Translations under genes and position numbers: made by a program
Notes under the pieces: model-generated
The model's input: the letters and a program-made list of their open reading frames with translations, nothing else
Told to the model about the DNA's origin: nothing
Database searches by the model: none
Source: Planctomycetota bacterium
Lineage (GTDB): Bacteria > Planctomycetota > J058
Reading direction: 5' to 3'
Length of the DNA: 46,722 nt
Assembly (NCBI GenBank): GCA_016765095.1
Contig: JAESQQ010000184.1
Location: forward strand, 1 to 46,722
Shown: piece after piece, positions 6,774 through 30,726 of the stretch
Layout of the letters: the number at the start of each line of letters is the position of its first letter
How positions within the stretch are numbered: position 1 is the first letter of the stretch

Positions 6774-8252
6774 CTACTTCCCGCTGAGTCCGTAGCGGTC
6801 GAGCATGCGATAGAAGGTCGAGCGGGGGACATTTAGCTTTCGTGCAGCCGCGACACGACTGCCCTTCGTCTCGAGGAGGGCCGCCACGACGAGATCCCGC
6901 TTGACCTCCTCCAGCGTCCGTGAGGGCTGATCCGGAGCGCCAGCCTCGCGAATCTCACGGGGCAACGCCTCGGGCGTGAGTTCACCCCCAAAGGTCGCCA
7001 GGCGGACGCAGAGGTTGTTGAGTTCGTGGAGGTTTCCCGGCCAGGAATACTGGACCAGCGAGTCGAAGACCTCAGGGGCGACCGGACCGTGACCCGGAGC
7101 CTCACGCCCCAGGAGAAACACAAAGAGCTGAGGGACATCGTCGACGCGCTCACGGAGCGAGGGAACCGAGATCGATTGAAGCGAGAGCAGGCAGCGGAGG
7201 TCTTCAGCGAGCCGGCCTTCGGCCACTAGCTGATCCGGGTCGGAGCTCATGGAGACGACGACTCGGGTCAAGAGGGGCTGGGGGCGATCGCTGCCCACCG
7301 CGCAGAAAGCCCGCTCCTTGAGGACTGTCATGATCTCCCTCTGCAAAGAGAGGGGGATCGAGTCGAGGTCCTCCAAGACAAGCGTGCCCGAGCTCGCTTG
7401 GACCAAGGCGCCGTCCTTGGCGAGGCCGACGAGGTCTAGATGCCCAAACAGCTTCCCTCGCAGGTCGCGCTCGTCGATTCCCGAACAGGGGAGCGAGACG
7501 AACTCACCCTTTCGAATGCTCCGAGCGTGAACCTCTCGCGCGACCGCTGACTTGCCCGAGCCTACCTCCCCCAGGATCAAGAGCGGGGTCAAAGAGCGCG
7601 CCGCGCGATCGACCTCTTCTTGGATCTTGTGCATCGCAGGGGAGTCGCCGACCAGCTCCCCCCGCCGAACTATCGAATCAAGCGTAGGCACGAGCCGCGG
7701 AGCGGGGCTCGGGCTCGGCTCAGCCTCCGCTGCACTCACCACCTTCAACCGAGCTGTCTCTAAGGCCAGCGCTGCTTGATCTGCGAAGGCCCTCAGGCAG
7801 GGCAGATCAGCTTCGGTGAATGCGGCCTTGTCGAAGCGGTGATCGACGTAGAGGACGCCGACTGTCTCGCCTCGGAGTCGCATGGGGACGCACGCGATCG
7901 AGAGCACTCGGCGAGCCTGGACGCTGCTGATCTCGATCAGGTCCTCGTCCTCTTCGTGGGTCGTGACCACGTCTCGGTCGAGGTCTAAGACGCGCTGGAC
8001 GACCGTCTTGGAGATCTTTCCGGCGGGGCTGTTGAGCGCGTCGCCGTCGAACCCGAGCGCCATTTCGACGCGCTTCTTGATTCCGCCCGGCTTCTTCTCG
8101 ACTCGAACGAGGAACCCACGCTCTGCCTCGGTCAGCTGGATCGCTGAGTGCACGATCAGATGAAACAAGGGCTCGAGGCTCTCCTCCCGAGCCAGCGCAG
8201 CCCCCACTTCGCGAAGCCTACGAAGCCAGGCCAATTCTCGCTCACTCGTCAT
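6774..8252 (-). CDS. GAF-AAA+-Fis transcriptional regulator with degenerate AAA+ core
   Basis: A 492-residue protein shaped like a bacterial enhancer-binding protein: GAF domain (about 20-167), AAA+ domain (about 200-420, Walker A GEVGSGKS at 228-235), and a Fis-type helix-turn-helix at the C-terminus (about 445-488, AARKLNVPRSTFYRMLDRYGL). The AAA+ domain has lost several hallmarks. The sigma-54-contacting GAFTGA loop is replaced by DLVGLA, Walker B reads LVLEDL, and the segment that is usually FREDLYYRL reads LAEDLRCLL, without the arginine fingers. It is therefore unlikely to remodel sigma-54 holoenzyme in the usual way, and may bind DNA as a GAF-controlled regulator. The ATG at 8252 has an AAGGGGAC site. 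It is transcribed away from the hairpin-rich gap at 8253-8617. Confidence 0.85.
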   Translation of the reverse strand: MTSERELAWLRRLREVGAALAREESLEPLFHLIVHSAIQLTEAERGFLVRVEKKPGGIKKRVEMALGFDGDALNSPAGKISKTVVQRVLDLDRDVVTTHEEDEDLIEISSVQARRVLSIACVPMRLRGETVGVLYVDHRFDKAAFTEADLPCLRAFADQAALALETARLKVVSAAEAEPSPSPAPRLVPTLDSIVRRGELVGDSPAMHKIQEEVDRAARSLTPLLILGEVGSGKSAVAREVHARSIRKGEFVSLPCSGIDERDLRGKLFGHLDLVGLAKDGALVQASSGTLVLEDLDSIPLSLQREIMTVLKERAFCAVGSDRPQPLLTRVVVSMSSDPDQLVAEGRLAEDLRCLLSLQSISVPSLRERVDDVPQLFVFLLGREAPGHGPVAPEVFDSLVQYSWPGNLHELNNLCVRLATFGGELTPEALPREIREAGAPDQPSRTLEEVKRDLVVAALLETKGSRVAAARKLNVPRSTFYRMLDRYGLSGK

Positions 8253-15656: not shown

Positions 15657-18437
15657 GTGACTTTCGGCGCATATCTCCCCGGCCCGGGCGACGTGGTGGA
15701 CTCCACCTACCGGATCGAGGCCCTCCTTGGCGAGGGGGGCATGGGCAGGGTCTATCGCGCCTACGACTCGGGCCGAGGCCACGAGGTAGCGCTCAAGATC
15801 CTGCACCCGCGCCTGGTGACGGACTTGATCCTCAAGCGCTTTGAGCTCGAAGCTCTGCTCTTGGCCCGCCTCGACGAGGGGGGCGGGGTCGTTCGGGTCT
15901 ACACCTCAGGCTCTTGGCTCGGAATGCCCTATTACGCCATGGAGCTCGTCGAGGGGAGAGACTTGTCTGCGGTGATTCGCGAGGGTGCCTCACCCCACCA
16001 AGTCGCCAAGATCGTTCTGAAGCTCGCCCGGATCCTAGAAGAGTGTCACGGCGCGGGAGTTCTGCACCGTGATCTCAAGCCGGCCAACGTCCTGATCGGG
16101 GAGACTGGGCAGGTCAAGCTCGTCGACTTCGGAATCGCAAAGGACATTGAGCACTCGCAAGTCGAAGCGCTCACCCAGACTGGAGAGGTCAACGGATCCC
16201 CTGCCTACATGGCACCCGAGCAAGCGCAGGCTTCGTTCGGGGCGCAGGGACCCCGCACAGACGTCTATGGCCTAGGCGTGATTCTCTACGAGGGGCTCGC
16301 GGGCAGGCCGCCCTTCGGTGGCTCGTGGATGGCCGTCCTCTCGAGCGTCGTCGCAGACGTGCCTCCCTCGCCCTCGAGCCTGCGAGCGGGAGTCCCTCGC
16401 GACTTGGAGCGCGTGTGCCTAAGGGCCATGGCCAAGCGCCCGGAGGATCGCTACTGCAGCGCCGAGGCCTTCGGAGACGATCTCGCTGAGTTTCTCAAGG
16501 AGGGCTCGGTCCAAGTCGAGCGGTGGTCCGGTCCTAGCTCGCCAGGGGTCTGGTTACGAGCTGGAGCCCTTCTAGTTGTAATGCTCTCTGCGCTGCTCGT
16601 TGGTGGGTGGGGCTGGAGCGCGAGGCAGGCCGCCGAAGGGCGACAGCTCTTGGAGCGAGTCGCCGAGTTCGACGGGTATCGCTGCGCGAGCGACTCGAGC
16701 CAGTGCCAGGGCGGGGACCACACCTTGGCGAACTGGGCCTTCGGCCTGTCCCCAGGTGAGGCTGAGCCGAGCTCCGCCGAGCTGGAGCAGGCGTTGGAGG
16801 ACCTCTCCCGAGCGGCCACGCTCGGCGCGCGCTCCCCTGAACTCGAGGACCGCCTCGAAGCTCAGCGACGGTTGCTGGTGCTCCGCAGCGGAGGAAGAGT
16901 CAGGTCCCCATCGGGATCCAAGGGCGATCGACTCACCGTGCCCACTCTGGTGTTTGCCCTCGTCCTTGAGCACGAGGGCAAGCACCTCGCAGCACTCGAG
17001 GAATGCGCGCGCGCCCGCAGGGCTGGGGATCGCCCTTCGCTCACGATGAAGGTCTCACGAGAGACGCTCGCGCGCGCTTACCTGGCACGCGTTCGGGGCG
17101 CTCCGAAGCTCACCGCGGCACGGATCCGTCGATCGCTCGACGAGGTGCTGCAGTGGACGACCGAACTACGGATCTCGGACGCCGACCTACCCGAGCTGTT
17201 AGCGGCCCGTAAGCAAGCAACCATTGAAGCCACAGCCCCGCTCTGGGAGGCGGCTCTCCCAAAGCGCCCCCTAAGTCAGGCGGCGCGTGAGTTCACGATT
17301 CGAATCGGGACCCTGCTCAAGGATCAAGTCCCGATCGACCCGGGGCCCTCGCTCAATCACGTCTTGGAGCGACTGGAGGAGCCCTTCCTAGCGGCGGCCC
17401 AAACCAAGAGAGACCTGACGAGCGTCAGCGCAGCGGCTGCTCTAGACAACGAGCTCTCTTACTGGGCCTCCACGACGAGGTCTATCCCCGAGAGGTTGCG
17501 CGAAGCAGCCCAGGCCATGATCACGACTGGGAAGGGCAGCTCGGATCCAGAGATCTTTGTGCTCTACCTTCGCGGGGGAGGAGACGTGTTCAACCACAGC
17601 CGACCCCACTTCTTCCTCAAGCACCTAGGGGATGCCCCGCTCAAGGTCCTCCTCGAAACACGACCCGGGAGTCAGGCCCTCCACTACTGGAGGTTGCTTG
17701 AGGCCGAGCGAAGAGCAAGCGGGGGGAGCGGGAGGGAGGCTGTCTTCCGAGAGCAGGGACCGCAGCTCTTTGCGTCGCGGGTCAAGGACCTCGCGACCGA
17801 CTTCCTCGTTGAAGCCCACCGGGACCTGAGCGACGCCTGGCTAGACGACGGGGATCGGACGGACCGATTGTCCAGCTACGAGGAGGGCCGCAAGTGGGCG
17901 TTGGCGGGCCAGGCATTGCTCTCAGGAAGGGGGTCGGGGGTGTGGGGCCTTCTGCTCGCGGAGGCCCGGGCGATACGCGCCCTGCGAGGTGCCAAGGAGG
18001 CCGACGAGTGGCTCCGACGAATTCGAGAGCAGGCCGGCCCGCGCTTTTCACGAGGGGATCCAATGCTGCGTGAACGCACCAAGGCGGCGACGCTCTGGGT
18101 GCTATCGGCCGTGTGGCTCGCGGAGGGAGGCCGGGAGGAGGAAGCCCTGCGGGTCGCAGAGGAGGGACTCGAGCTCGGCAGGCGTGGCGGGAGACCAGAC
18201 ATCATGTTCTTAGGCAGGGCGACCTGCGCTGGCATCTACCGTCGCCGCGGAGACCTCGAGCAGGCCCAGGAGGCTCTCGGGAGCATTGACATAGACCGGG
18301 GGATTCGACTCTCCCCTCCCTTCGCGATTGAGTCCGTTCGCCTGGCACGAGCCAGCGGCGAGCCGGAGGAAGCCAAGCGCCGGTTAGCGCTTTCCGTCGC
18401 GCATCACTCCCGCTTGGAGATCCCCAAGGAGGAGTGA
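15657..18437 (+). CDS. Membrane Ser/Thr protein kinase with large helical C-terminal domain
   Basis: A 926-residue receptor-type kinase. The kinase domain (about 18-280) is complete: glycine loop GEGGMGRV, Lys47, HRDLKPAN at 137-144, DFG at 157-159 and MAPE at 185-188. One membrane helix spans about 300-321. The last 600 residues are predicted mostly alpha-helical with repeat-like character (for example EEALRVAEEGLELGRRG), as in TPR-like solenoids, and should face the periplasm. Such kinases phosphorylate Ser/Thr on partners in response to the outer domain. The start is a GTG at 15657 without a strong ribosome site, but no better start precedes the glycine loop. The TGA stop directly abuts the stop codon of the next gene on the opposite strand. 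Confidence 0.9.
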   Translation: MTFGAYLPGPGDVVDSTYRIEALLGEGGMGRVYRAYDSGRGHEVALKILHPRLVTDLILKRFELEALLLARLDEGGGVVRVYTSGSWLGMPYYAMELVEGRDLSAVIREGASPHQVAKIVLKLARILEECHGAGVLHRDLKPANVLIGETGQVKLVDFGIAKDIEHSQVEALTQTGEVNGSPAYMAPEQAQASFGAQGPRTDVYGLGVILYEGLAGRPPFGGSWMAVLSSVVADVPPSPSSLRAGVPRDLERVCLRAMAKRPEDRYCSAEAFGDDLAEFLKEGSVQVERWSGPSSPGVWLRAGALLVVMLSALLVGGWGWSARQAAEGRQLLERVAEFDGYRCASDSSQCQGGDHTLANWAFGLSPGEAEPSSAELEQALEDLSRAATLGARSPELEDRLEAQRRLLVLRSGGRVRSPSGSKGDRLTVPTLVFALVLEHEGKHLAALEECARARRAGDRPSLTMKVSRETLARAYLARVRGAPKLTAARIRRSLDEVLQWTTELRISDADLPELLAARKQATIEATAPLWEAALPKRPLSQAAREFTIRIGTLLKDQVPIDPGPSLNHVLERLEEPFLAAAQTKRDLTSVSAAAALDNELSYWASTTRSIPERLREAAQAMITTGKGSSDPEIFVLYLRGGGDVFNHSRPHFFLKHLGDAPLKVLLETRPGSQALHYWRLLEAERRASGGSGREAVFREQGPQLFASRVKDLATDFLVEAHRDLSDAWLDDGDRTDRLSSYEEGRKWALAGQALLSGRGSGVWGLLLAEARAIRALRGAKEADEWLRRIREQAGPRFSRGDPMLRERTKAATLWVLSAVWLAEGGREEEALRVAEEGLELGRRGGRPDIMFLGRATCAGIYRRRGDLEQAQEALGSIDIDRGIRLSPPFAIESVRLARASGEPEEAKRRLALSVAHHSRLEIPKEE

Positions 18438-20616: not shown

Positions 20617-21312
20617 ATGAAGCCAAACCGCATTCCCCCAACTCGAGGTGTCCGCTCACGTCCGACGGATTCCGAGTTGGCCGCAGCCGCGCTCGATGGT
20701 TGCAACGACGCGTTCCGCGTTCTGGTCGAGCGCCACCAGAAGGGGGCCTTTTGGCTGGCTCGGGGAATGTTGAGGAATGATGACGACGCGCGAGACGTGA
20801 GCCAAGAAGCGTTCATTCGTGTCCACCGCTCGCTGGTCAAGTTCGATCCGAAGCTCAGGTTCAAGAGCTGGCTGAACCGGATCGTGGTCAACCTCTGTAT
20901 CGACTCGCTTCGTTCGCGAAGGTGCAGAGTCGCGGTCGACCTGTCGAGTATCGGGGAGCCCCGAGACCCTCGAGCGACGCCCGACCGACTCGAGGAGGAA
21001 GAGCTCAAGGAGCGCGTCGCCCAGATCCTCGATCAGCTACCGGATCGGTACAAGACGATCATGGTCTTGCGTGATCTCCAGGGGGTCTGCGCGAAGCGAA
21101 TCGGAGAGATCACGAACACTTCGCACGCCACGGTTCGCTGGCGACACCACCGCGCACGACAGCTTTTCCGAGAGGCCTGGGAGAGGACCTACGGGAAGGA
21201 GCCGACGCTCTCCCTGGCCGGACTCGCCCTGCCGCTTGGCGAAAAAGTGCTTCAGATCGGTCGCTGTGTCCGAGTTGACTCGAGATCCAAGGAGGTTGAC
21301 CACCCGTGGTGA
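20617..21312 (+). CDS. ECF-type RNA polymerase sigma factor
   Basis: A 231-residue sigma-70 family protein. Region 2 lies at about 20-95 (FRVLVERHQKGAFWLARGML, then DDARDVSQEAFIRVHRSL) and region 4 at about 128-185 (LPDRYKTIMVLRDLQG, then ITNTSHATVRWRHHRARQLF). Region 3 is absent, as expected for extracytoplasmic-function sigma factors, which direct RNA polymerase to specific stress or envelope genes. About 45 extra residues follow region 4. A GGAGGA site precedes the ATG. No anti-sigma factor gene follows; the next gene is an exported TraB-like protein. Given the surrounding membrane kinases, control by kinase phosphorylation is possible, but this is inference. Confidence 0.9.
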   Translation: MKPNRIPPTRGVRSRPTDSELAAAALDGCNDAFRVLVERHQKGAFWLARGMLRNDDDARDVSQEAFIRVHRSLVKFDPKLRFKSWLNRIVVNLCIDSLRSRRCRVAVDLSSIGEPRDPRATPDRLEEEELKERVAQILDQLPDRYKTIMVLRDLQGVCAKRIGEITNTSHATVRWRHHRARQLFREAWERTYGKEPTLSLAGLALPLGEKVLQIGRCVRVDSRSKEVDHPW

Positions 21313-25597: not shown

Positions 25598-26596
25598 TTG
25601 CTCTCCTTCTGGGAGGTCCCTGCGCATGCCACAACCCAAGCCATAAGTCCTTTGTTACAAACGAACCGTCCCGGCTTAGACTCCAGTTTCGACCGACAGT
25701 GTCCATATCTTGGACACCTTGGCCTGGCTGCACTTGCAGCGGGGTCCGAGCCTTGGTTCGATGCCAAGGTGGACTCGACTCTCTCTAGACGCGATCAAGC
25801 CCTCGTGGCGCCGGCGGGCTACGAGCTGGAGCGCCTGGTGGGGCGAGGCGCAAACGGAAGGGTCTACTTGGCACGAGCCCAGGGAGACCGCCCCGTCGCA
25901 GTCAAGATTCTCGAACCCCTGAGTGTCGAGAGCCGGCGGCGGTTTGCTCGTGAAGCTGAGCTAGGCCGCCAGCTTAGGCACCCCGCCCTGGTCGAAACCT
26001 ACGACTCGGTGCTGCTCGAAGAGGGGGCCTTCCTTGTCCTCGAATACGTCCCTGGCCGACCTCTCTCAGAGGCCATCGCAGGTGGAGCGATTGGGGTCTT
26101 GGGGACGCTCGGATTGATCCGAGACGTGGGAGGTGCGCTCGCTTACCTGCACGGCGTCCAAGTCGTGCACCGGGACGTGACCCCTCGCAACATTCTTCAA
26201 ACCAAACTCGGGACTCGACTCTGCGACCTCGGTCTAGCGAGACCCCTAAACGTGACCACTCTGCTCACCGACGCTGGCTCACTGGTCGGGACGCTCGAGT
26301 ATCTCGGACCGGAGCTCGTGAGAGGCGAGGATGCTCAGCCAGCCAGCGACGTGTATGCACTCGGTGCCAGCGCATACCATGCCCTCGCAGGACGACCCCC
26401 CTTCCTGTTCGAAAGCCTCGTCTCCCTCGCAAACTCAATCTCCTTCAACGCCCCGCCCGATCTGCGGCGGACGTGCCCGTCTGCTCCTCCCAAGCTCACG
26501 GAGTTGATCCAGAGCATGCTGGAGAAGGACCCGACCGACCGGCCGAGCGCGCTAGAGGCCGTCACCTTGGCGCGCGGAATCAACCCAGAGGTCTAG
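25598..26596 (+). CDS. Small soluble Ser/Thr kinase with altered catalytic motifs
   Basis: Up to 332 residues. Only residues from about 74 onward match a kinase (GYELERLVGRGANGRVYLA, Lys103, HRDVTPRN at 191-198, CDLGLA at 209-214, and GPE in place of APE). The catalytic loop has Thr where most Ser/Thr kinases have Lys, and DFG is DLG. The catalytic Asp, Asn and metal-binding Asp are kept, so activity is plausible. There is no membrane helix or extra domain. The start is uncertain: the TTG at 25598 gives an unassigned 70-residue N-terminus, and GTGs at 25769 and 25805 lie nearer the domain; none has a strong ribosome site. Its stop overlaps the ribosome site of the next gene, an FHA-like regulator, so the two are almost certainly cotranscribed. 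Confidence 0.82.
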   Translation: MLSFWEVPAHATTQAISPLLQTNRPGLDSSFDRQCPYLGHLGLAALAAGSEPWFDAKVDSTLSRRDQALVAPAGYELERLVGRGANGRVYLARAQGDRPVAVKILEPLSVESRRRFAREAELGRQLRHPALVETYDSVLLEEGAFLVLEYVPGRPLSEAIAGGAIGVLGTLGLIRDVGGALAYLHGVQVVHRDVTPRNILQTKLGTRLCDLGLARPLNVTTLLTDAGSLVGTLEYLGPELVRGEDAQPASDVYALGASAYHALAGRPPFLFESLVSLANSISFNAPPDLRRTCPSAPPKLTELIQSMLEKDPTDRPSALEAVTLARGINPEV

Positions 26597-26600
26597 GAGG
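26595..26600 (+). promoter_or_regulatory. AGGAGG ribosome site abutting the GTG start
   Basis: A perfect AGGAGG overlaps the TAG stop of the small kinase and touches the GTG at 26601 with no spacer, whereas 5-9 bases is usual. Either initiation relies on coupling to the upstream gene, or the true start is further down. The FHA-like fold begins within about 12 residues of this GTG, which favours it. Confidence 0.6.
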
Positions 26601-28868
26601 GTGCCCTATCTGATTCAGCGCTCTCCACACCAGGTCTACCCTCTCGCGCAGGGGGTGATCTCGATCGGTGGAGGACCGCGAGACGAGATACGAGTGCCGG
26701 GCGCGCCTCCCTCGACCTGCCTCCTCAGCCTCTCGGTAGCAACTGGCTATCTGGTGTCGGTGCTGGACGAGGAGCGTCGCCGCCACGTTCGACTCGACGA
26801 CGTTCAGCTTGCGCTCGAGCCGACCGCTCTTCTCGGCAATGCTGAGCTGGTCGTGGCCGGGACAGAGTTCCTGTTCTTCGCCGGGGACGCCTGTCCGATC
26901 ACGAACCTGCCTCCTGACTCAACCTTGGACGCCCTAGTTCCGCTCCTCCTCCAGCGGGAGGGAGTCGCGACCCTGCTCTGCTTTGAGATTCAGCACTTCG
27001 GGCTGCTGGCTGATCTCGGAGGGCTGGAGGCTACGAGTCGCCTCTCTCGCGCTGTCGCTCGCGCCCTGCACGACGTGCTCCCCGAGAGCGCGGGAAGATC
27101 GGGGGGGGCCTTGGGAGCCTTCTCGGCGGCCGTGGCCCTTCCGCCGGACCGCGCGCTCAAGCTCGCCGAGCGAGTTCGCGGACGTGTGCGCACCCTAAAG
27201 CTGGCTTGGGCCGACAAGGAGTTGGAGCCCTCCCTGGTCGTGGGCCTGGCGCCGGTCAGCCAACCCCTGCCGCTCGCCGTGCGCACCAGTCGCTGCGAGG
27301 CTGCGGCGGGTCTACGCCAAGCGAGCCGCGGGGGAGCGAGTTTCGACTCAGACGATCCCGCGGGGGACGCGTCGCTGCTCCTCTCGCCCGACGGCTTGGC
27401 GCTGCTCGGCGTCGTCGAGAGCATTCTGAGCGCAGGCGAAACCGCGGCCTGCTTGGACTCGCTGCTCCACTTGGTGGTCAAGCAAACGAAGGCCGAGCGG
27501 GGCTTGCTCTTCCAACAGGAGCCCGACGGAGAGCTCGTCGTCGCCGCCAGCCTGGACCTGACCGAAGACCTCCTCTCCAGCTCACCTGCCCTGGCGGTCA
27601 GTCGAAGCTTGATTAACGAAGTCGCGCGAACCCAGCGCACGATCCTGGTCGACGACGCCCTCAGGGACCCGCGCTACCAGGATCGAGAGAGCGTCGTCCT
27701 CAGTGGCCTCCGCTCGGCGTTGGTCGTGCCCCTCTCGTCTGGCCAGGACACGATCGGCGTGATCTACCTCGACAGCGGCCAAGTCAGCGCACGCTTCACG
27801 AGAGTCGACCGCGATCTCCTCCAAGCGTTCGCCGCGCTGATCAGTGGACCGATCGATCGCCTTCGGAAGGCCGGTCGGGATCGCGCCAGGCTCGCCCCCC
27901 CCGCTCCGGCTCCCCAGGTCTCGGCGTCGGTTCGACGGGCGCTCGTGGGCGAAAACCCCGCCTTCCTCAAGCTCCTCGAGCGGATCGATCGCTACGCCGC
28001 GACCGAAGCTCCCGTCGTCCTCGAGGGGGAGAGCGGCACCGGGAAGGAGATCGTGGCCCGGGCCTTGCACCTCGCGTCCGGCCGCCCAGGGGCCTTCGTG
28101 GCCGAGAGCTGCACTGCGATTCCGCCCTCGCTGCTGGAGGCGACGCTCCTCGGGCACGAGCGCGGCTCGTTCAGCGACGCCCACGAGGGGCGGGCGGGCC
28201 TGTTCGAGCAAGCACACCAGGGCACACTCTTGCTCGACGACGTCGATCACATGCCGCCGCCTATGCAGGCCGCCATTTTGCGGGTGCTCGAGGGAGGTGA
28301 GGTGCGACGTGTGGGCGGAGTCGAGACCCACCCGGCAGCGTTTCGGCTCCTGATCTCGACCCAGCAGCCGCTCACCAACCTCGTCAAACAGGGACGCCTC
28401 CGCCAGGACCTCTACTATCGCTTCAACGTCCTGGGCCTGCGGCTCCCGCCCCTGCGCGAGCGCCCCGACGACATCCCCCTCTTGGTTCGCCACTTCATAG
28501 AGGTCTACGGGGAAGAGAGCCGCGGACTCCAATTTTCGCAAGCTGCGATGGCCCTCGTCAGCGCGTGCAGTTGGCCAGGCAACGTGCGACAGCTCGAGAA
28601 CGAAGTTCGCAGGCTCCTCTTGGTCCATGGGTCCACGCCCGTCGAACCTGCCGACTTGGCGCTCGAGATCCGGCAATACGCCGGGCTCCTCCCAAGCGTC
28701 GTGCTCGGCGAAGGGTCGACCCTCAAGGACATGGTTGCGGCCCTCGAGCGGAAATCGATCGTCGCCGCCGTTGAGGGAAGCGGTGGGAACAGGGCGCTGG
28801 CGGCCCGTCGGCTCGGAATCAGCCGGTCACTCCTGTATCTCAAGCTGGATCGCTACGGGCTGACCTAG
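26601..28868 (+). CDS. FHA-like / degenerate GGDEF / GAF / AAA+ / Fis transcriptional regulator
   Basis: A 755-residue multidomain regulator. Residues about 13-95 look like an FHA domain (YPLAQGVISIGG...DEIRV), but the phosphothreonine-contacting Arg and His are not conserved. Residues about 108-240 resemble a GGDEF domain whose signature is broken (GGALGAF). A GAF domain lies at about 262-415. The AAA+ domain (445-670) has Walker A GESGTGKE at 475-482, Walker B LLLDDV, and the arginine-finger segment RQDLYYRF. The GAFTGA loop is replaced by GSFSDA, so sigma-54 contact is doubtful. A Fis-type helix-turn-helix ends the protein (ARRLGISRSLLYLKLDRYGL). Immediately after the atypical kinase, it is the natural phosphorylation target. 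Inputs may include phosphorylation, a nucleotide, and a GAF ligand. Confidence 0.85.
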   Translation: MPYLIQRSPHQVYPLAQGVISIGGGPRDEIRVPGAPPSTCLLSLSVATGYLVSVLDEERRRHVRLDDVQLALEPTALLGNAELVVAGTEFLFFAGDACPITNLPPDSTLDALVPLLLQREGVATLLCFEIQHFGLLADLGGLEATSRLSRAVARALHDVLPESAGRSGGALGAFSAAVALPPDRALKLAERVRGRVRTLKLAWADKELEPSLVVGLAPVSQPLPLAVRTSRCEAAAGLRQASRGGASFDSDDPAGDASLLLSPDGLALLGVVESILSAGETAACLDSLLHLVVKQTKAERGLLFQQEPDGELVVAASLDLTEDLLSSSPALAVSRSLINEVARTQRTILVDDALRDPRYQDRESVVLSGLRSALVVPLSSGQDTIGVIYLDSGQVSARFTRVDRDLLQAFAALISGPIDRLRKAGRDRARLAPPAPAPQVSASVRRALVGENPAFLKLLERIDRYAATEAPVVLEGESGTGKEIVARALHLASGRPGAFVAESCTAIPPSLLEATLLGHERGSFSDAHEGRAGLFEQAHQGTLLLDDVDHMPPPMQAAILRVLEGGEVRRVGGVETHPAAFRLLISTQQPLTNLVKQGRLRQDLYYRFNVLGLRLPPLRERPDDIPLLVRHFIEVYGEESRGLQFSQAAMALVSACSWPGNVRQLENEVRRLLLVHGSTPVEPADLALEIRQYAGLLPSVVLGEGSTLKDMVAALERKSIVAAVEGSGGNRALAARRLGISRSLLYLKLDRYGLT

Positions 28869-28947
28869 TGGGGTGTCAGGAGGCGAATCGGCTACATTGC
28901 GCCAGGGGTCTCGGTCGACGGCCCTCTCCGCGAAGGAACTAGGACTG

Positions 28948-30726
28948 ATGCCCCCTCGCCCGCAGTCACACCACTCCGGAGATCAAATCGCAGGCCGCTA
29001 CGACCTGCGAGAGGAGTTGGGGCGAGGCGGAATGGGCGTCGTCTTTCGTGCCTTCGACCCAGAGCTAGGGAGGGAAGTCGCTCTCAAGCTCTATCGGGGG
29101 CCCCTGACCGAATCTGATGCACTCGAACGCTTCGAGCGCGAGGGTCGGATCGCCGCGAGGCTGCGTCACCCGCACATTGTGCCCGTTCATGACTTCGGCC
29201 TGTTCGAAGGGCGACCCTACCTCAGCTTCGCCTTGATCGAAGGAGCTCGCAGCGCTGACCAGTGCTTCGAAGAGTTGAGCGTCGCCCAGCGGGTGGCGCT
29301 CGTGCGAGACGCAGCGACAGCCCTCGGTTACGCCCACGCCCTCGGCGTGATCCACCGCGACGTGAAGCCTGAGAATCTTCTCGTGGACCCTTCCGGGCAC
29401 GTGTGGGTCACCGATTTCGGAGTCGCCCGGGCAAGCGGGGAGTCTCGCTTGACTCGGACAGGTCAGTTCGTGGGGACTCCGACCCACATGGCGCCCGAGC
29501 AGTATGCAGGCAGCGCAGGCGAGATCGGTCCTCCGGCCGACGTGTGGGCGCTCGGAGTCGTCCTCTATCAGTCCCTCTGTGGGCGCCTGCCCTTCGAGGC
29601 CAACAACTTGCTCGCCCTCGTCTCGCTGGTCGCGACCACGACGCCTCCCAAACCTAGCGAGCTCGATTCGCAGGCGCCGAGGGCTCTAGACGAGGTCTGC
29701 CTCTCAGCGCTCGATCAAGATCCAACGCGGCGCCCTCGTGACGGGGCGGCACTCGCGCTCGAGCTCGACCGATACCTCGCGGGCGAGCTCGCGCCCGATC
29801 GAAGTCCGGTTCTGCGCACTGGGGCGTTCCTCACCCTGATCGCGATCGGACTCGCGGTCTGGGCGGCGACCCTTTCGCGAGGAGAGCCAAGCCTCCCCCC
29901 TGGCCCCTCCAGTCCCAGGTCCGAAGTCGCCCCCCCATCTCCTGGCCCCCCGACTCCGCAGTGGTGGACTCTAACGCCGGCAGATCGGCGCCCCCCCTTG
30001 CCTCTCCCCGAGGGGGTCACCCGAGCCGCCAGGTCGTTCGTCCTGACGCGGCGCGGCCTGAAGATCCCCTTGGTGTGGGTTCCTCCTGGCACCTTTCGAA
30101 TGGGCTCCGACCGTGACGTCAGCGAACGCCCCGTGCACAGCGTTCAGATCACCCGGGGGTTCTTCCTCGGCAAGTTCGAAGTCCGAGTCAGCGACTACGA
30201 GCGGTTCTGCGAAGCGACCGGCCGGGGCCCCCCCTCGCGGCCCTACTTCGACCAGGAGCAGACCCACCCCGTCGTGGGGGTCAGCTGGGAGGACGCCGCG
30301 TCGTTTTGCACCTGGCTGGACGCCCGGTTGCCGACCGAGGCGGAGTGGGAGTGGTCGGCTCGTGGTCCGAAGAGTCTGCTCTACCCATGGGGGAATCAAC
30401 TGGCTGGGCCCAGGCACGCCAATCTCCGCGGGCACGAGGACCGCTTTCGGACGACGTCTCCTGTCGGCTCCTTCCCAAAGGGCGCCTCCTGGATCGGGGC
30501 CTTCGACTTGGCAGGGAGTGTGTGGGAGTGGGTTCAAGACCACGACCACGTTTTCGTCGCGAGTGACCAGATCGACCCAACCGGTCCGCGAGAGGGAGCG
30601 CTGCGGATCCGCAAGGGGGGGTCCTACTCCAGCCAAGCGAGAAACCTCACCGCCACGAACCGCAATCCGACGGCTCCGGGCAAGATCCAGTTTGACCTGG
30701 GGTTTCGAATCGCCTTCGGCTCGTGA
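28948..30726 (+). CDS. Membrane Ser/Thr protein kinase with FGE/SUMF1-like domain
   Basis: Read from the ATG at 28948, which has AAGGAA nine bases upstream; a GTG at 28873, five bases after the previous gene, would add 25 residues without a ribosome site. The product is 592 residues. The kinase domain (about 18-275) is complete: GRGGMGVV, HRDVKPEN, DFG and MAPE. A membrane helix lies at about 290-312, followed by a Pro/Ser linker and an FGE-like domain (VWVPPGTFRMGSDRDVSE, FFLGKFEVRVSDYERF, VSWEDAASFCTWLDARLPTE, FDLAGSVWEWVQD, RKGGSYSS, and GFRIAF). The FGE catalytic Cys pair is absent. It follows the FHA-like regulator by 79 bases or less, so the kinase, regulator and receptor kinase form a likely operon. 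Confidence 0.88.
   Translation: MPPRPQSHHSGDQIAGRYDLREELGRGGMGVVFRAFDPELGREVALKLYRGPLTESDALERFEREGRIAARLRHPHIVPVHDFGLFEGRPYLSFALIEGARSADQCFEELSVAQRVALVRDAATALGYAHALGVIHRDVKPENLLVDPSGHVWVTDFGVARASGESRLTRTGQFVGTPTHMAPEQYAGSAGEIGPPADVWALGVVLYQSLCGRLPFEANNLLALVSLVATTTPPKPSELDSQAPRALDEVCLSALDQDPTRRPRDGAALALELDRYLAGELAPDRSPVLRTGAFLTLIAIGLAVWAATLSRGEPSLPPGPSSPRSEVAPPSPGPPTPQWWTLTPADRRPPLPLPEGVTRAARSFVLTRRGLKIPLVWVPPGTFRMGSDRDVSERPVHSVQITRGFFLGKFEVRVSDYERFCEATGRGPPSRPYFDQEQTHPVVGVSWEDAASFCTWLDARLPTEAEWEWSARGPKSLLYPWGNQLAGPRHANLRGHEDRFRTTSPVGSFPKGASWIGAFDLAGSVWEWVQDHDHVFVASDQIDPTGPREGALRIRKGGSYSSQARNLTATNRNPTAPGKIQFDLGFRIAFGS

Follow-up and report, generated by a model that had tools for sequence, protein, structure and literature searches.

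Three adjacent genes, coding for a small Ser/Thr kinase (K1), a multidomain transcription regulator (REG) and a membrane kinase (K2), raise the question of whether kinases and regulator act together, and how. The genes are located in the window, i.e., the whole stretch of 46,722 nucleotides analysed, which derives from a Planctomycetota MAG encoding eukaryote-type kinases by the hundred. An earlier note on this DNA proposed that K2 senses the envelope and that phosphorylation is relayed through K1 to REG, which would change transcription without ordinary sigma-54 contact. Its description of the genes was borne out: all three are on the + strand with gaps of 4 nt, and judged by strand and spacing alone they likely form one transcript, that is, an operon.

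25598-26596, + strand, K1 open reading frame as listed (start TTG 25598)
25769-26596, + strand, likelier extent of K1 (start GTG 25769)
26601-28868, + strand, REG, FHA-like/GGDEF-like/GAF/AAA+/Fis regulator of 755 aa
28873-30726, + strand, K2, membrane Ser/Thr kinase with an FGE-like outer domain

The TTG start of K1 overlaps an open reading frame on the opposite strand and GTG 25769 aligns with the GTG start of the ortholog in genome G006, so that K1 probably starts at this GTG.

Adjacent orthologs of K1 and REG were found in a second genus (G006, contig JAMLIC010000014.1, ACE_NR_PLAN1), where they are spaced by 10 nt compared to 4 nt in the window. K1 and the neighbouring kinase of G006 are sisters in the kinase tree (support 0.969) and reciprocal best matches among the kinases compared; likewise, REG and its G006 ortholog are sisters in the AAA+ tree (support 0.934). 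Identity between the two genera is about 40% for K1 and 53% for the C-terminal two thirds of REG. At the sequence level, these comparisons establish K1 and REG as a real co-inherited kinase/regulator pair across two genera, and with the unit conserved in this way a coupling from kinase to regulator is a reasonable reading. Of the gene order that was to be followed by co-occurrence, the K1-REG part is retained in both genera and K2 is not. A query with the N-terminal part of REG gave a match in 2 of 10 genomes of the order, and no further K1-REG pair turned up in the order or in a sample of 392 genomes from the phylum; G001, of the same genus as the window genome, lacks the pair as well, the assemblies being fragmented. 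Searches of the genome contigs with REG alone found nothing, and the GAF alignment retrieved the G006 contig only. The best-scoring K1 match in G003 was rejected, being an FHA-kinase with no REG adjoining. A frameshift near L016:8190, in a GC-rich stretch, splits the REG ortholog of G006; faulty assembly or real decay may be the cause.

As had been noted from the letters, K1 is a soluble kinase, of the Hanks Ser/Thr type (Pfam Pkinase, PF00069, E 2.6e-42), in which Thr replaces the Lys of HRDxKPxN.

25895-25906, + strand, VAVK of K1
26168-26191, + strand, HRDVTPRN of K1
26225-26233, + strand, DLG of K1
26306-26314, + strand, GPE of K1

According to motif searches, from which all genome kinase counts given here are taken, this is the sole HRDxTPxN in its genome compared to 381 HRDxKPxN, and the G006 ortholog of K1 has the Lys. 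Across 10 genomes of the order HRDxTPxN occurs 21 times, and at many of these loci a G-loop, VAxK, D[FL]G and APE-type motif can be made out nearby in the same frame. The idea that K1 is a pseudokinase was dropped because many of the other HRDxTPxN kinases look normal otherwise; judging from these motifs, Thr for Lys does not by itself make K1 a pseudokinase. It retains the Lys of VAxK, the Asp of HRD and the DFG-type Asp (in DLG), and from the remaining motifs we infer that K1 is an active kinase despite the substitution. In G007, a genome of 12.3 Mb from the same order, there are 835 matches to HRDxKPxN (0 in the control), a motif count and not a set of curated kinases, which exceeds the 525 Ser/Thr kinases of Ca. 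Uabimicrobium amorphum (PMC11032199).

In a rival explanation, a small ligand acts on REG as on any GAF-controlled sigma-54 activator, and K1 and K2 are mere neighbours that do not signal to it. Both the window and its genome are kinase-rich (eight or more Ser/Thr kinases within 46.7 kb, and about 381 HRDxKPxN motifs in the genome), so neighbours will often be kinases; moreover, the cousins of REG with a canonical FHA domain (L011-L013, described below) have no adjoining kinase. This explanation sits less well with the K1-REG adjacency being kept across two genera despite their divergence, and with a second kinase/GGDEF-GAF-AAA+ pair that is kept in 4 genomes. We consider it rather unlikely.

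The kinases of the window start at 15657, 18438 (Sel1), 22490 (FGE), 25769, 28873 (FGE), 32927, 35392 (Sel1) and 39429 (TPR), and near this cluster are an ECF-type sigma factor (20617-21309) and a pair of T2SSE ATPase genes (112-2524). Genome-wide, a kinase is found within 800 nt of 12 of the 49 enhancer-binding proteins (EBPs), compared to a rough estimate of about 10% (p about 0.003); that kinases adjoin EBPs more than expected is suggestive only, because kinases cluster.

The second pair belongs to a set located elsewhere in the window genome (G000:C686, L197:393-6620), where an FGE receptor kinase, a soluble kinase and a GGDEF-GAF-AAA+-HTH regulator stand in tandem, in a gene order different from that of K1-REG-K2. 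Its regulator, which is not orthologous to REG, has canonical motifs (GAFTGA and DE). The adjacency of soluble kinase and regulator is divergent in three of the 4 genomes that keep it.

REG itself comprises the following domains and motifs.

26601-26888, + strand, FHA-like domain (Foldseek PDB matches; alignment to three intact FHA cousins)
26946-27335 (approximate limits), + strand, GGDEF-derived domain (paralog alignment; PF00990 match of the ortholog)
27099-27122, + strand, SGGALGAF in place of GG[DE]EF
27447-27845, + strand, GAF domain (PF01590, E 5.6e-17, residues 283-415)
27942-28676, + strand, AAA+ sigma-54 activator domain and lid (PF00158, E 3.9e-52; PF25601, E 7.5e-19)
28026-28049, + strand, Walker A GESGTGKE
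28104-28118, + strand, ESCTA, with Ser at the Asn64 position (PspF numbering)
28164-28181, + strand, GSFSDA in place of GAFTGA
28227-28241, + strand, Walker B LLLDD in place of DE
28737-28856, + strand, Fis-type helix-turn-helix (PF02954, E 1.2e-9, residues 713-752)

The domains assigned by Pfam (GAF, Sigma54_activat, AAA lid and Fis HTH) include the AAA+, lid and Fis HTH of a sigma-54 EBP. Neither FHA nor GGDEF was detected by Pfam at E<=0.1. The N-terminus was modelled with AF2 (residues 1-265, two-row alignment), giving a mean pLDDT of 46.5, with about 55-74 over residues 1-90. In a Foldseek search against the PDB nearly all matches listed for this model are FHA or FHA-like (best E 4.5e-4, target TM about 0.7), mycobacterial FhaA being on top, and the viral fold library yielded nothing at E<=0.001. 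The structure prediction that the earlier note had called for thus returned an FHA-like fold, and an FHA fold of the N-terminus is supported by this low-confidence model together with the alignment. A full-length AF2 model was set aside (pLDDT 40). The next region aligns with paralogs bearing real GGDEF domains, and for the REG ortholog PF00990 gives a match at E 1.9e-4, narrowly under the cut-off of Pfam.

Three further proteins of the order, L012 (FHA_G009, in G009), L011 (G004) and L013 (G006), have the FHA-GGDEF-GAF-AAA+-Fis architecture and keep the canonical FHA motifs including SREH and NGT. In the AAA+ tree REG, its G006 ortholog, L002 and L012 form one clade (support 0.988), L011 and L013 being more distant from REG. 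Since REG aligns with this family of the order, its architecture is not new, and the alignments and tree place it as a divergent member of a planctomycete FHA-GGDEF-GAF-AAA+-Fis EBP family. A large protein of G089 was rejected as a distant ortholog, for its N-terminal part differs (TPR/GAF-like by reading) and it is related in architecture only. The window also encodes a second GAF-AAA+-Fis protein (6774-8252, - strand), in which the GAFTGA stretch is missing and Walker B reads LED; it may be a more degenerate EBP.

That the FHA residues, GG[DE]EF and GAFTGA of REG are each changed, as had been observed before, holds on alignment. The residues of GR, SxxH and NGT, which serve phosphothreonine recognition and are intact in the three cousins, are all replaced in REG (SIGG, PPSTC, RRHV) as well as in its ortholog, and the FHA domain of REG presumably no longer reads phosphothreonine. 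The GG[DE]EF signature is absent from both proteins (SGGALGAF in REG and RGGAF in the ortholog). Because the FHA-intact cousins also have GGGKF or AGGKF at this position, the loss of cyclase activity in the family is probably old.

The AAA+ domain carries two sets of changes. GSFSDA differs from GAFTGA at three positions, with the Phe kept and Thr changed to Ser. Among about 60 AAA+ matches GAFTGA was counted 37 times, GSFTGA 8, GAFSGA 4 (including the REG ortholog) and GAFTDA 3, so that each change is found singly in paralogs, and these have an intact Walker B; by this comparison GSFSDA looks like a mild variant. The second set, which the earlier note did not mention, concerns the glutamate switch, altered in REG and its ortholog alike: Walker B DE is changed to DD and Asn64 to Ser. 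This combination occurs in no other AAA+ match, the N/E pair being kept in 44 of 62, and the only other Walker B of the DD/ED type is that of the degenerate protein at 6774. REG has STQ at the sensor I position and an intact Walker A, Arg-finger region and sensor II motif (WPGNVRQLE).

The sigma-54 independence proposed earlier is not supported, because each of the GAFTGA changes is found alone in paralogs and the genome carries rpoN. In NorR, a Gly-to-Asp replacement at the corresponding place in GAFTGA (G266D) keeps sigma-54 activation and escapes repression by GAF (PMC2941729). No phosphosite or promoter target was found, and -24/-12 sites are not enriched, the two-mismatch matches in the window numbering 5 compared to 12.65 expected. 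Most likely, as far as its domains tell, REG still binds DNA via Fis and remodels sigma-54 RNA polymerase.

It could be argued that REG has given up sigma-54 activation altogether and is a DNA-binding repressor or a scaffold, given that GSFSDA, the DD Walker B, Ser for Asn64 and the STQ sensor I coincide in one AAA+ domain and that PspF E108 variants have lowered ATPase (PMC4132715). We hold this to be improbable: the other AAA+ motifs named above are intact, the ortholog has GAFSGA, the GAFTGA changes are single in paralogs, rpoN is present, PspF E108D has reduced ATPase and still engages the closed complex (PMC4132715), and NorR G266D still activates.

The reading that we prefer, tentatively and at somewhat less than an even chance, is that K1 gates REG, a slow-ATPase activator of sigma-54, without canonical FHA docking. 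REG would be bound to DNA through Fis and would remodel sigma-54 RNA polymerase, its ATPase being slow because of the altered glutamate switch, an effect extrapolated from PspF E108D. K1 would phosphorylate REG or dock on it and thereby gate the GAF-controlled AAA+ ring. Since the recognition residues are gone in both orthologs, this coupling would proceed without canonical FHA-phosphothreonine recognition, and the FHA and GGDEF regions would be scaffold or dimerisation modules instead of a phosphopeptide reader and a cyclase. A broader proposal would be a class of kinase-paired EBPs in which a phosphothreonine-blind FHA and a switch-altered ring have been selected, the kinase docking on or phosphorylating the ring and activation being slow or dependent on a second activator subunit; this is speculative and has, in our view, a small chance of being right.

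The third gene, K2, has the make-up first described for it, a kinase (PF00069, with HRDVKPEN) and an FGE-like domain (PF03781, E 4e-47) with one hydrophobic segment between them.

29818-29874, + strand, hydrophobic segment of K2 (hydropathy)
30070-30714, + strand, FGE-like outer domain of K2 (PF03781)

The FGE active-site cysteine pair, which we take to sit near the C-terminus, is missing: the last Cys of K2, 617 residues long, is no further on than residue 479. Nothing distinctive was found in K2 compared to other planctomycete FGE-type kinases. The conserved three-gene order expected earlier fails in the only ortholog found: no FGE kinase adjoins REG in G006, where a kelch-type lipoprotein-like gene (by reading) follows the REG ortholog and the K1 ortholog is preceded, at a distance of 71 nt, by a WD40 receptor kinase. 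Receptor kinases are numerous nearby, and K2, one of them, is not a fixed part of the pair. A single relay from K2, sensing the envelope, through K1 to REG can draw on the 4-nt spacing, the differently ordered C686 set and the WD40 receptor kinase of G006, but it is very improbable and as a fixed unit not supported, with no FGE kinase beside the REG ortholog or beside orthologs of the C686 regulator, and no REG adjacent to the close K2 homologs checked elsewhere. In the preferred reading, where K1 gates REG, K2 may feed the pair from outside the fixed unit.

Planctomycetota have hundreds of Ser/Thr kinases with mostly unknown outputs, and K1-REG offers a small, specific test system: a conserved kinase/transcription-regulator pair lends itself to tests of kinase-to-sigma-54 signalling, and its naturally varied FHA pocket and glutamate switch can be set beside those of intact cousins of the same order. 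The novelty of REG is that of a variant of FHA-type enhancer-binding regulation. Jelsbak, Givskov and Kaiser reportedly proposed in 2005 that FHA-domain EBPs connect Ser/Thr kinases with the sigma-54 regulon in Myxococcus xanthus (cited in PMC12288465). Like REG, those proteins are sigma-54 activators with an N-terminal FHA domain; REG differs by its additional GGDEF-like and GAF domains, the adjacent dedicated kinase gene, an FHA domain without the phosphothreonine-binding residues and the altered glutamate switch. L011, L012 and L013 share the five-domain order of REG, L012 even the supported AAA+ clade, whereas their FHA motifs, GAFTGA and Walker B DE are intact and no kinase is a neighbour. 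The Bdellovibrio protein DgcB, which also has FHA followed by GGDEF and whose gating is ascribed to an upstream kinase, provides a precedent, but it acts as a cyclase, its FHA domain works and it is without AAA+/Fis output (PMC6733907). K2, finally, has the architecture of single-pass Ser/Thr kinases that have been described as common in Planctomycetota and whose outer domain is of the sulfatase-modifying-factor type, which ranks third in abundance among the accessory domains of such kinases (PMC11032199).
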